Origin: a virus
DNA: 42,865 nt
Virus record (IMG/VR): IMGVR_UViG_3300031746_000050
Span: 1 to 42,865 of that record
Direction: 5' to 3' (one strand)
Shown in pieces: positions 4,283 to 20,533 of the stretch. The notes beneath the pieces are model-generated. The model ran no database searches. It saw nothing but the letters and a program-made list of their open reading frames with translations, and was not told the DNA's origin. Both the position numbers and the translations under genes were made by a program. The first letter of the stretch is position 1; the number at the start of each line of letters is the position of its first letter.

Positions 4283-6628
4283 ATGAAAAAAATATTTATA
4301 CCTATATTTATATGTTTGTGTTTAATTGCCTATATAGTAGGATATTCTACCACTACAACTACTACTAATTTATTATTGGTTAAACCAGCAAGTGAAGATA
4401 CAACTGTGGATTACTTTGATACAGTCAATGCTAATATGGATTTAATCGATGCTATATTCAATACCGTGTCTTTAACCGAATTTGGTTATCTTGATGGGGT
4501 AACTTCGGCAATACAGACACAATTAGGACTTCGATATTTAAAGACTGAAATAGATGCTGAAACGGAAATGGAAGCAATTTGGGGTGTAGGATTGGCTCAT
4601 TCAGGGGCGAATTCTGACATAACTTCTTTAACTGGATTAACTACTGCTTTGGGTGCGGCTTATGGTGGTACTGGTATTGCCAACAATGCTGCCGAAACCA
4701 TAACTATAGGTGGGGCAGGGACTTATGCACTTACTTTGACCTTAACCAATACTACCAATGTTACTTTGCCGACTACTGGCACGGTATTAACCAATGCGGC
4801 TAATACTATTGATAGCGACCAATATGTTGACGCAAGTATAGACCACGAACATTTAGCTCCAGATGTAATAAGTGGATTAACCGATGTAACTTCGGCTGAT
4901 GCTGATTATATGATGATTTGGGATGCAACGGATAGTGCTTTAAAAAAAGTAGATATGGCAGAAGTAAGAGGTGCGGGTGGAGGTCTTGCAGCAACTGATA
5001 TTGATACTTCTGCCGAGATTGCAGCAATAGTAGGCGATGAGACTGGAACTGGTGTGTTGGTATATGGGACTTCTCCGACCTTTACGACTAATTTAACCGT
5101 TACTGATTTAATTTATTTTGATAATACAGTAGATTACAATATTAAATTAGGTTATCAGGCAGGGAAAAATGTAGCTTCTGGAGCGATAGATAATACTTTT
5201 GTTGGTTATCAAGCAGGTTATTTTGGTGCTACCAGCACCAATGCAGCAGATTATAACATTGCCGTTGGATATAAATCTCTCTATTCTAATACTACTGGTA
5301 GTGAAAACACAGCCATAGGAGTAAATGCTCTTTATTCTAATACTACAGGATACGAGAATTTAGCATTAGGATACGGTGCTTTATATTCTAATACCATAGG
5401 AATTGAAAACATAGCCATAGGATACAAAGCTCTTTATACTAACGTTAGCGGTAATGATAATTTTGCAATGGGAGTAGAGGTACTCCGTTGTAATACTACT
5501 GGTTATGAAAATACATCAATAGGAACATATTCTCTCTGGACTAATACTGAAGGTTATGATAACTCAGCTTTGGGGTATAATGCGCTTTATGCCAATAGTA
5601 CTGGCTATCAAAATACAGCAGTGGGAACTTATGCAGGTGATAAAATCACCACTGGAAATTCAAATACCTTTGTAGGATATGCTGCTGGAGATAATGCCTC
5701 CCAAAAAGTAGATGCTGTAAATTCAACAGCTTTGGGAGCAAATGTTTATACTACAAAGAGTAATCAAGTAGTTCTTGGGGATACAAATATAGTAGAAACA
5801 TTATTAAGGGGTAGTATCTATATAGGAAGTGACTATACTGCTCCTACTGCTCGTTTACATTTACCTGCAGGCACAGCAACTGCTTCTACTGCACCATTAA
5901 AGTTTACTTCTGGGACACCACTCACAACTCCTGAAGCAGGGGCAGTAGAGTTTCAGACGGACACTTATTATGCAACAATAACGACTGGTGCAGCAAGAAA
6001 AAGTTTTGCCTTTCGTGAAGATAAGTTATCTGCCTTTGCCGCCACTACTTCAGCCGAACTGGCAGGGGTAATAAGTGATGAGACTGGAACGGATAAGTTA
6101 GTCTATAATACTTCTCCAAGTTTGGTTACTCCGACTTTAGGTGCAGCAAGTGCGACCTCTATAAATCTTACAGGTGGTCAAATTGCCTTCCCTGCGACTG
6201 CTGCTCCCAGTGCGGATGCAAATACCCTTGATGATTATGAAGAGGGTACGTGGACAATGGGAGTATCCTTTGGTGGAGGAACAACGGGGATTACTTATAA
6301 TAGATACACTGGTTACTATACGAAGATAGGAAATTTGGTAACTATAAGTGGGCGGTTGACTTTAACATCAAAAGGTTCATCTACAGGAGCAGCATTACTT
6401 ACGGGTCTTCCATTTACGGTAGTAAATAATGATGCTGGGTGGGCTGCGGCAGTACTACGAGTATGGAATATAACATTTGCCAACCAAATAATGGGAAATA
6501 CTGTGATAAATACAACAACAATAGAATTACAGGAACTTACGGAAGCAGGAGCGAGTACAGCCTTAGCAGATACAGATTTTGCAAATACCAGTGAAATTAT
6601 AGTTGGTTGCACCTACAGAATAAATTAA
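4283..6628 (+). CDS. Tail fibre/spike-like protein with head-type beta repeats
   Basis: 781 residues. The N-terminus is a basic start plus a hydrophobic stretch (residues 5-22) that reads like a signal peptide or TM anchor, unusual for a phage fibre. Residues 25-60 (LLVKPASEDTTVDYFDTVN) resemble the N-terminal module of many phage fibres. From about 290 to 480 it carries imperfect repeats of roughly 20 residues with the core NTAIGxxAL.SNTTGYEN, which form beta-solenoid or trimeric head-like stalks. The C-terminal domain starts at DDYEEGTWT and contains YTKIGN, a receptor-binding domain common in phage fibres. The likely role is host recognition. The start is ATG directly after the preceding stop. 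Confidence 0.8.
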   Translation: MKKIFIPIFICLCLIAYIVGYSTTTTTTNLLLVKPASEDTTVDYFDTVNANMDLIDAIFNTVSLTEFGYLDGVTSAIQTQLGLRYLKTEIDAETEMEAIWGVGLAHSGANSDITSLTGLTTALGAAYGGTGIANNAAETITIGGAGTYALTLTLTNTTNVTLPTTGTVLTNAANTIDSDQYVDASIDHEHLAPDVISGLTDVTSADADYMMIWDATDSALKKVDMAEVRGAGGGLAATDIDTSAEIAAIVGDETGTGVLVYGTSPTFTTNLTVTDLIYFDNTVDYNIKLGYQAGKNVASGAIDNTFVGYQAGYFGATSTNAADYNIAVGYKSLYSNTTGSENTAIGVNALYSNTTGYENLALGYGALYSNTIGIENIAIGYKALYTNVSGNDNFAMGVEVLRCNTTGYENTSIGTYSLWTNTEGYDNSALGYNALYANSTGYQNTAVGTYAGDKITTGNSNTFVGYAAGDNASQKVDAVNSTALGANVYTTKSNQVVLGDTNIVETLLRGSIYIGSDYTAPTARLHLPAGTATASTAPLKFTSGTPLTTPEAGAVEFQTDTYYATITTGAARKSFAFREDKLSAFAATTSAELAGVISDETGTDKLVYNTSPSLVTPTLGAASATSINLTGGQIAFPATAAPSADANTLDDYEEGTWTMGVSFGGGTTGITYNRYTGYYTKIGNLVTISGRLTLTSKGSSTGAALLTGLPFTVVNNDAGWAAAVLRVWNITFANQIMGNTVINTTTIELQELTEAGASTALADTDFANTSEIIVGCTYRIN

Positions 6629-8299: not shown

Positions 8300-8398
8300 G
8301 GGGGCGTAAGGTTATCGAGGGGTAAGTCCTCCTTAATATTATAGACTGAAAGAGTAAGGCGGCACTCGACTCGGGTTCGATTCCCGACGCCTCCACCA
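8300..8398 (+). tRNA. tRNA/tmRNA-like RNA with encoded CCA
   Basis: The acceptor stem GGGGGCG (8300-8306) pairs with CGCCTCC (8388-8394, one G-U), followed by A and CCA. The T arm is perfect: TCGGG, loop TTCGATT, CCCGA (8371-8387). The 5' portion (AGGTTATCGAGGGG) resembles the D-loop side of tmRNA. The middle does not give normal D and anticodon arms: CCTTA (8331-8335) pairs with TAAGG (8355-8359) around a 19-nt loop. At 99 nt it is too long for an ordinary tRNA and far too short for a whole tmRNA. It starts 1 nt after the phosphoesterase stop. It could be an unusual tRNA, a reduced tmRNA, or a tRNA mimic. Confidence 0.6.
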
Positions 8399-11083: not shown

Positions 11084-11100
11084 CTATTTTTAGGAAATGC

Positions 11101-11129
11101 TTGACAAAGATATTTTCATTTGATATTAT
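11101..11129 (+). promoter_or_regulatory. Consensus sigma70 promoter, leaderless
   Basis: TTGACA (11101-11106), 17-nt spacer, TATTAT (11124-11129). The ATG of the HTH gene begins at 11136, so the transcript should start at or within a base or two of the start codon. There is no Shine-Dalgarno. Confidence 0.85.
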
Positions 11130-11135
11130 TAGCAT

Positions 11136-11336
11136 ATGATAAAAGATGAAAGAATCCTAAAGTTAAAAGAAATTGTTGATAAGCATCAGATTAGTCCTGT
11201 AACTATGGCTCATATTGTTGGGATAAGTTTACCCACTTATTACAGATACATAAAGGGTGAAACTGTCCCGCATAGTCGGAATACTAGAGACATAATAGAT
11301 AGAATTATAGAAGAATATAATTTTAAAAAACTATAA
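11136..11336 (+). CDS. HTH (Cro/CI-like) transcriptional regulator
   Basis: 66 residues, a single helix-turn-helix domain: SPVTMAHIVGISLPTYYRYIK (about 20-40) has the pattern of helices 2 and 3 in Cro/XRE proteins. It is first in the early operon and is made from a near-consensus promoter with no leader, as for the lambda cI maintenance transcript. CATATGAT overlaps its own start codon (11133-11140) and recurs twice at 11423-11443, suggesting autoregulation. No partner repressor of opposite orientation is present. Confidence 0.75.
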   Translation: MIKDERILKLKEIVDKHQISPVTMAHIVGISLPTYYRYIKGETVPHSRNTRDIIDRIIEEYNFKKL

Positions 11337-11344
11337 TAAAAGGA

Positions 11345-11530
11345 GAAAACCGCTATGGTGCTCAAATATCCAAATTAATAACAATAGAATATTTTGGATA
11401 TCTGGGGAACGTCCTATAATATATCATATGTAAATCATATGATAATATAAAAAATAAAATTAAATAGCCAGATAATTAACCAGATATCCCAAACAGGTTG
11501 CGGTTTTCCTGTTAGATGTCTGGTTTTTTA
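11345..11530 (+). promoter_or_regulatory. Attenuator-like leader with alternative hairpins and terminator
   Basis: Four pairings compete. ATATCCAAA (11366-11374) pairs with TTTGGATAT (11393-11401). GGATATCTGG (11396-11405) pairs perfectly with CCAGATATCC (11480-11489). GAAAACCGC (11345-11353) pairs with GCGGTTTTC (11500-11508). The terminator arms 11480-11497 and 11508-11523 (CCAGATAT..ACAGG with CCTGTT..TGTCTGG) precede six Ts. The second and third pairings each exclude the terminator. The leader peptide lies in the first arm. It is placed between the regulator and the whole early operon. Confidence 0.65.
11355..11378 (+). CDS. 7-codon leader peptide
   Basis: AAAGGAG is followed after 9 nt by ATG and the reading frame MVLKYPN, then TAA. 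The last codons overlap the 5' arm of the first hairpin (11366-11374). This is the layout of ribosome-dependent attenuation leaders. Coding is inferred from the ribosome site and position only. Confidence 0.5.
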   Translation: MVLKYPN

Positions 11531-11556
11531 TTTGGCTTATTTTATTTTAAATTGCC

Positions 11557-11672
11557 TGCCCTGTGGCGTTCTGGCGAAAACGCTTATATCAATTCAAGTG
11601 ATTCGGGCAAAGCCGAATGGCGACGACAAAAAGCACGACCAGTTAAAACAGGTTCGAATCCTGTCAGGGCAG
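11557..11672 (+). tRNA. tRNA-like fold with UCA in the anticodon position
   Basis: Acceptor TGCCCTG (11557-11563) pairs with CAGGGCA (11665-11671), and the helix extends outward to 10 bp. The D-arm is GCGT..ACGC with GG in the loop. ATCA (11588-11591) pairs with TGAT (11599-11602) around ATTCAAG, placing TCA at 34-36. A 6-bp variable-type arm, ATTCGG..CCGAAT, follows, and the T arm is ACAGG-TTCGAAT-CCTGT. It departs from a normal tRNA: 3 extra bases before the anticodon stem, about 29 bases before the T arm, no encoded CCA. UCA would read UGA. A true suppressor or selenocysteine-like tRNA is possible; so is a tRNA mimic. Confidence 0.55.
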
Positions 11673-11697
11673 GCATATAGAAAGGAGGTGAAAAACA

Positions 11698-11898
11698 ATG
11701 AAATTAAATTGGGGAGAAGCAGAATATAATTATTTCCACAAAAAAATCCCAGTAGTAGAGAAAGAAAGTTGGCTAACTAAACTAATCGATAAATATTTCT
11801 TCTGGATTTTATTGGGAATATTAATTACTGCTAATGTTTGGGTTTGGTGGGGGATATACCAGCTTCATTTGTTTCAAATATTTGTGAGGTCGATTTAA
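11698..11898 (+). CDS. Small single-TM protein
   Basis: 66 residues, ATG after AAAGGAGGTG. A soluble N-terminal part of about 35 residues precedes one strong aromatic TM helix (about 38-57, FFWILLGILITANVWVWWG). First gene after the attenuator and tRNA-like element. No family recognised. Confidence 0.6.
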   Translation: MKLNWGEAEYNYFHKKIPVVEKESWLTKLIDKYFFWILLGILITANVWVWWGIYQLHLFQIFVRSI

Positions 11899-11926
11899 AA
11901 AATATTAATTATGGAGGTTAAATGAA

Positions 11927-20330: not shown

Positions 20331-20359
20331 TTGACATTAAAAGATTTTTGTGTTATATT
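20331..20359 (+). promoter_or_regulatory. Sigma70-like promoter
   Basis: TTGACA (20331-20336), 17-nt spacer, TATATT (20354-20359). It starts a short unit of one small gene that ends at the terminator near 20630, ahead of the methyltransferase/nuclease pair. Confidence 0.7.
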
Positions 20360-20374
20360 TTTAAGGAGAATATA

Positions 20375-20533
20375 TTGACAGAGAATAAAAGATATGAAAT
20401 AATAAAAAAAATATTAATAAAGTTGAAGGAGATTTTAGAAGATAACCCTGATTATTGTGGGTCTATAACGATTAATTTTTACAAAGGTGGAATATCGGAT
20501 ATTCAAAAGACCCAAAGCATAAAAGTTAAATAA
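20375..20533 (+). CDS. Small protein, TTG start
   Basis: 52 residues from TTG 20375, with AAGGAG 8 nt before it. Helical lysine-rich first half (YEIIKKILIKLKEILEDN) then a short beta part. It is the only gene between its own promoter and its own terminator. No family recognised; a small regulator is possible. Confidence 0.55.
   Translation: MTENKRYEIIKKILIKLKEILEDNPDYCGSITINFYKGGISDIQKTQSIKVK

Follow-up and report, generated by a model that had tools for sequence, protein, structure and literature searches.

What does the DNA between the regulator gene and the early genes of this phage respond to? The window (the whole analyzed stretch of 42,865 nucleotides) contains terminase and portal genes and belongs to a tailed phage. 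A sequence-only reading had described an attenuator-like set of parts between a phage regulator and its early genes, with the logic of amino-acid operon attenuators, so that the translation state of the host could decide early transcription. The placement was correct: the parts lie between an HTH gene at 11136-11336 and the first early gene at 11698, and the evidence supports mutually exclusive RNA helices of the attenuator type here, conserved and covarying among relatives. The named parts were found as well, but a 28-bp dif-like site at 11409-11436 and the outer stem of the terminator had been omitted, and the presence of the dif-like core likely changes what the device senses. The best explanation, which we consider rather probable, is a transcription attenuator built around the Xer-type attachment site of the phage, with control complete only in unintegrated DNA.

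The element and its relatives

The features of the element and its surroundings are listed in Table 1.

Table 1. Features of the element and neighboring genes, in window coordinates.
Feature	Position	Strand	Basis
HTH gene promoter, TTGACA-17-TATTAT, TG ahead of second hexamer	11101..11129	+	11/12 consensus matches
Cro/C1-type HTH regulator, 66 aa	11136..11336	+	Weak Pfam HTH_26/HTH_3 and PHROG transcription-regulator matches; relatives 56-95% identity
Leader-frame Shine-Dalgarno (SD) AAAGGAG	11339..11345	+	Sequence; SD-like stretch in all leader-bearing relatives
Leader segment GAAAACCGC, complement of terminator loop 11500-11508	11345..11353	+	9 perfect pairs
Putative leader peptide frame MVLKYPN, stop codon included	11355..11378	+	Start codon and (V/I)LK(Y/C)P codons recur in relatives
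Arm1 ATATCCAAA of hairpin 1, within leader frame	11366..11374	+	Fold and duplex energies
Arm2 GGATATCTGG, pairs with arm1 or terminator 5' arm (antiterminator)	11396..11405	+	Perfect in 14/14 attP-type loci
dif-like XerC/XerD site, proposed attP core: XerC arm ACGTCCTATAA, centre TATATC, diverged XerD arm ATATGTAAATC	11409..11436	+	B. subtilis dif likeness; near-identical in relatives
Palindrome ATCATATG-TAAAT-CATATGAT overlapping XerD arm; candidate RNA hairpin 2 or HTH-protein operator	11423..11443	.	TCATATGATAATAT recurs in L014 HTH promoter
Extended terminator hairpin: inner T run 11524-11529, second T-rich tail 11538-11548 past outer stem	11466..11548	+	MFE structure; both stems conserved in relatives
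Terminator 5' arm CCAGATATCC	11480..11489	+	Partner 11515-11523 or arm2
Terminator loop segment GCGGTTTTC	11500..11508	+	Complementary to 11345-11353
tRNA-like structure past terminator, ahead of first early gene; acceptor-like stem TGCCCTG/CAGGGCA, T arm ACAGG-TTCGAAT-CCTGT	11553..11675	+	Fold; only in some relatives
First early-operon gene, 66 aa, likely membrane protein	11698..11898	+	ORF

The MVLKYPN frame with its own ribosome site and the overlap with arm1, as previously described, are all present at 11339-11378; the frame ATGGTGCTCAAATATCCAAATTAA (11355-11378) reads ATG GTG CTC AAA TAT CCA AAT TAA, and in hairpin 1 arm1 ATATCCAAA pairs with TTTGGATAT. Arm2 (11396-11405) and the terminator 5' arm (11480-11489) are perfect complements over 10 bp. 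The 9-bp pairing proposed between the leader start and the terminator loop is likewise perfect (11345-11353 with 11500-11508). The terminator 3' arm GATGTCTGG at 11515-11523 is followed by TTTTTT at 11524-11529, and with its outer stem, in which the sequence from 11466 onward pairs with T-rich sequence reaching about 11537, the terminator hairpin has roughly double the length first described. The 216-nt region folds at -62.3 kcal/mol, compared to -35.2 ± 4.1 kcal/mol for shuffles (z = -6.7), and the element matched no family in Rfam searches at gathering and permissive thresholds.

The relatives carrying the element are many uncultivated viral contigs, identified with either the HTH protein or conserved DNA as query. 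Those found by the HTH protein (L025, L027/L028, L029, L099 and L104/L106) all carry the element directly 3' of the HTH gene, so its conservation is not a product of the DNA pattern used for searching. In L007/L010 an additional gene intervenes between the HTH gene and the element, which is thus a unit of its own. The DNA at 11100-11900 had no relatives among 50,697 named phage records, and a query with the leader start returned, beyond two known relatives, chance matches only. One of the relatives, L013, encodes at 4489-5505 a reverse transcriptase of 338 aa resembling part of a diversity-generating element.

The dif-like core

The block at 11409-11436 (ACGTCCTATAATATATCATATGTAAATC) is the best conserved in the element. 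It shares 22 of 28 positions with the experimentally confirmed B. subtilis dif sequence, as quoted in PMC3025954; this is the best place in the window, and only 2 of 300 simulated windows reach 22. The phage cores keep the XerC arm and the centre, with a diverged XerD arm (ATC[A/G]TATG), and elements exploiting Xer are known to combine a conserved XerC arm with a diverged XerD arm in attP (PMC5357621). A 41-base query made from the canonical version hit non-coding sites on 301 plasmid records, mostly of Enterococcus. A TATAAT promoter at 11416, within the core, was considered and dropped, as its -35 hexamer is not conserved and the block fits dif. In G003 (L070) a canonical dif core occurs in the opposite orientation relative to the HTH gene.

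No match to PF00589 or PF00239, i.e., no integrase, was found in the window. A tyrosine recombinase was detected in neither the window nor 14 of 16 related records (15 of 17 in total), and a serine recombinase in none of the 17. Two relatives, L080 (G016) and L081 (G014), encode a short tyrosine recombinase (about 200 aa) of their own alongside the dif-like core, which counts against the explanation favored here.

Alternative pairing and its covariation

In the 70 bases examined to the left of the core, arm2 pairs perfectly with the terminator 5' arm over 8-11 bp in all 14 attP-type loci, and the alternative pairing claimed from the single sequence (10 bp in the window) is thereby upheld. Compared with shuffles, the pairing has P = 0.004 in the window and 0.002-0.008 in each of the 14 loci; it is broken (P = 0.16-0.19) in two loci whose left flank is foreign and contains neither HTH gene nor leader. 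When covariation was counted in one register over nine distinct sequences, 6 of the 12 pairs changed on both sides, giving 11 double-change cells, a result reached by none of 500 shuffles; sliding the register lowered the proportion of paired cells from 81.5% to 17-42%, a shift of one base being enough to bring it to 42% or less. In-register pair counts and shuffles were used because a matrix of own versus cross pairing was blurred by close relatives.

It could be argued that only the terminator matters and that arm2 resembles its 3' arm through an old duplication, which would make the alternative pairing a by-product. The two arms are indeed similar and pair with the same 5' arm, but arm2 differs from the 3' arm within each phage and is nevertheless a perfect complement in 14 loci, including the unrelated letters of L044; we regard this explanation as very improbable. 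Another one places the function of the repeats at the level of DNA, as Xer accessory sites, a hairpin substrate or HTH operators, with the terminator as a mere insulator. The attP of CTX phage is a folded single strand (PMC5357621), and the HTH promoter contains a stretch similar to the palindrome next to the core. The CTX-type core, however, is formed by pairing of two sites, while the core here is a complete double-strand site; several compensated arm2 pairs pass through G-U, which favors RNA, and the pairing arm is at the same time one strand of a terminator with T runs. Function in DNA alone appears, on this evidence, improbable. As a separate observation, TCATATG-like stretches occur both in the spacer of the HTH promoter (11101-11140) and in the palindrome beside the XerD arm (11423-11443), and it is possible that they serve the HTH protein as operators on its own gene and on the attachment site.

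The pairing of leader start with terminator loop has P = 0.002 in the window and 0.002-0.30 in single relatives. Its letters differ by lineage (ACCGC/GCGGT, ACCGT/ACGGT, AGCGT/ACGCT); it covaries more weakly than the arm2 pairing, and some loci have only a short version of it. The energy of hairpin 1 stays between -9 and -14 kcal/mol, with a register varying among loci.

In the folding model, when the RNA ends at the terminator 5' arm, arm2 pairs with this arm in most loci once a ribosome covers the leader. In L010 and L014 this happens mainly with the leader masked, and in L025 the arm2 pairing is 0.88 with a ribosome at the start codon and 0.31 at the stop codon. In several loci the arm2 pairing wins at equilibrium before the 3' arm is made, even without a ribosome, so that the need for translation is not evident, a further point against the favored explanation. 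The model always favors the terminator in the full-length RNA, so that antitermination would have to depend on kinetics, as it does in known attenuators.

The leader frame

The sequence-only reading stood or fell with relatives keeping both the frame and the alternative pairing. The pairing is general, as described above, and 13 of the 14 attP-type loci have the leader SD and start codon. The leader peptides (MVLKYPN, MVLKCPD, MVLRCPVQLQ, MILKCP, MILKCL, MVLKYPH, MVLKYPD and MVLKYPKPAKIEY) are 6 to 24 codons in length, and the frames of L039 and L034, with 24 and 20 codons, run across arm2. A regulatory codon run is absent from MVLKYPN and its relatives, and the operon is not biosynthetic. Since the shared codons coincide with arm1, selection on the peptide is inseparable from selection on the RNA. 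L044/G004, with another HTH type, has no leader at all and keeps arm2 (CACTCGGTTT), the core, the antiterminator partner (AACCGAGTG) and the terminator.

These results bear on the simplest alternative, a plain leader-peptide attenuator reporting translation capacity, in which the dif-like site would be incidental, attP and early control being often neighbors. The SD, start codon and LK(Y/C)P codons of the 13 loci agree with it, and so does the shift of arm2 to the antiterminator on ribosome masking in the folding model. It does not explain why L044 keeps antiterminator and terminator without a leader, why the frame varies so widely in length, covers arm2 in L039/L034 and lacks a codon run, or why the recombination core is conserved better than any other block; the conservation of the codons, moreover, cannot be told apart from that of arm1. 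Overall, a plain attenuator seems unlikely.

Attenuators of the trp/his/tna type share with this element an SD leader, a hairpin arm within the frame, mutually exclusive hairpins and a terminator ahead of the operon. The element differs from them in having no regulatory codon run and a leader of varying length; moreover, one relative is leaderless, a recombination site lies between the antiterminator arm and the terminator, and the leader start makes an extra pairing with the loop. The amino-acid attenuator logic holds for the SD leader and the exclusive helices and fails for the codon run, the leader length and L044/G004; on these grounds, and with the frames of L039 and L034 crossing arm2, the translation state of the host is not supported as the essential signal. 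Because L044/G004 retains arm2, core and terminator without a leader, leader translation is likely a modulator in the attenuator around the attachment site and not its essence.

Junction-like relatives

In G001 and G002 the phage side (the HTH gene, and in G001 also the leader) runs into the core, the right half of which is canonical, with the XerD arm TTATGTAAAG; the junction-type cores share 23-24 of 28 positions with dif, and the canonical dif version of G002 is ACGTCCTATAATATATCTTATGTAAAGT. The right flanks of both follow the pattern TAAAG[CT]AATATA..TTTTATTATATTTCC and have 39 of 49 positions in common despite the different HTH types, compared to at most 20 of 49 with any attP right flank. 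G006 and G007 have neither HTH gene nor leader to the left of the core; their left flanks, which agree at 39 of 45 positions, lead into the core and the phage terminator, and these are the two loci in which the arm2 pairing is broken. From their sequences, G001/G002 look like phage-to-host junctions and G006/G007 like the reciprocal ones, with the crossover at the core. The left flank of 45 nt in G006/G007 is also similar to that of the L039 attP (32 of 45) and may thus be phage-derived, which weakens the case for the favored explanation. The right flanks span 50-95 bases and the left ones 82-710, and the junction-like reading rests on these short stretches, as the searches yielded neither a junction with a long host flank nor a host genome carrying this dif. 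Scans of genome collections returned no host or prophage; the first of them used the phage XerD arm, which is not expected in a host dif, and hence does not exclude a host. The matching prophage end for G002 was not found either.

Of 19 contigs, 7 have the core no more than 200 bases from an end, compared to 0.27 expected, as if assemblies broke at the core; one of the seven, G021, is a circular genome cut nearby. The end of the L104 contig exactly at the core was rejected as a junction, since the contig ends overlap by about 100 bases and the genome is circular. Taken with the likeness to dif, the sequences of these relatives lead us to infer Xer-mediated integration of the phage at the core.

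Early transcription and the proposed mechanism

Between 11000 and 20300, the promoter at 11101-11129 is the single promoter-like site on the (+) strand with 11 of 12 matches, the next such sites being at 20331 and 20375. Most relatives likewise have TTGACA and, ahead of the -10, a TCATATG-like stretch upstream of their HTH genes. From 11698 to about 20.3 kb the genes, one of them related to Mu Gam, are tightly spaced on one strand, and in L071 a relative of the first early gene (38% identity) directly follows the terminator. Given this sole strong promoter and the closely spaced genes on the same strand, early transcription probably must cross the element. Near the end of the early region, at 20331-20403, there are two strong tandem promoter-like sites (11/12, TG before the second hexamer).

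The model that we infer from these parts, their order, conservation and covariation, the dif likeness and the junction-like relatives involves Xer integration, termination and antitermination in vivo, a role for leader translation and a shut-off by integration. Transcription would start at the HTH promoter and pass through HTH gene, leader and dif-like core before meeting the terminator. Arm2, just left of the core, would hold the terminator 5' arm, and RNA polymerase would read on into the early operon; hairpin 1 (arm1 with arm2) would block antitermination unless a ribosome on the leader occupies arm1. The attachment core lies between the promoter (11101) and the controlled genes (from 11698). 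The promoter, HTH gene, leader and arm2 would thereby fall to the left of the crossover and the terminator and early genes to the right, which is why control would be whole only in unintegrated phage DNA. Upon integration at a host dif, the early genes would lose their promoter and arm2, and the terminator would face read-through from the host alone. As a tentative, though quite possible, extension, the attenuator may read the intactness of attP: arm2 would allow read-through in free DNA, and integration would swap arm2 for host sequence, the terminator then silencing the early genes without a repressor there.

Several structured sequences were observed nearby. The tRNA-like structure at 11553-11675 has a GG-containing D-like arm and a loop that resembles an anticodon loop and reads UCA, and ARAGORN called no tRNA there. 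Recoding of UGA, hinted at by the UCA anticodon, was dropped, as TGA terminates 5 of 24 checked ORFs. tRNA-like or closed-stem structures also follow the terminators of L013, L025 and L027, and other relatives are without them; L009, L012, L016 and L039 have a different conserved hairpin in this place (CCGCAAGGUUGA opposite ACCUAAACGG, with a variable tip), with no Rfam match in the loci searched. Elsewhere in the window, the 99 bases at 8300-8398 form a tmRNA-like gene (Rfam tmRNA, 49.1 bits); its ends are tRNA-like with a CCACCA terminus, but it is too short for a tag frame or pseudoknots, and ARAGORN did not call it.

Comparison with known systems

In Tn916 the attenuator lies ahead of tet(M) and is not known to span the attachment site. 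According to PMC9632896, citing Celli and Trieu-Cuot 1998, Tn916 combines leader-type attenuation with transcription across the joined attachment site, whereby genes beyond it are expressed from the circular form alone; in both respects it is like the element proposed here. It differs as an integrative conjugative element with its own integrase. In phage lambda, int and sib are split by attP on integration. Lambda int is retroregulated by sib (PMC5300877). The two cases have in common an RNA structure beyond attP that is uncoupled by integration, but sib acts on int mRNA decay and not on early-operon termination. In mycobacteriophage BPs, attP lies within the repressor coding sequence and integration truncates the protein (PMC4557955); there, too, attP sits in a control element and integration alters regulation, with the difference that a protein is truncated, while here an RNA device would be split.

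Filamentous phages and islands use Xer recombination (PMC5357621, PMC9765430), and IMEX attP sites are described for the CTX, VGJ and TLC phages and the gonococcal island (PMC5357621). Two features of IMEX membership, a dif-like attP (XerC arm, 6-bp centre, XerD arm) and the lack of an own integrase, are found in the window, and the conserved XerC and diverged XerD arms are alike. The described phage examples are filamentous, in contrast to the tailed phage here, and no attenuator is described around their sites. The open-access literature searched contained neither an attenuator with a dif-like attP placed between its antiterminator arm and its terminator nor a tailed phage so arranged. Attenuators, Xer-using elements and switches split at att sites are each known; no report of their combination was found. 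If true, one device of 190 bases would join Xer-dependent integration, leader-peptide attenuation and regulation by splitting of the attachment site; in this way a tailed phage that lacks an integrase might couple its early genes to its state of integration.
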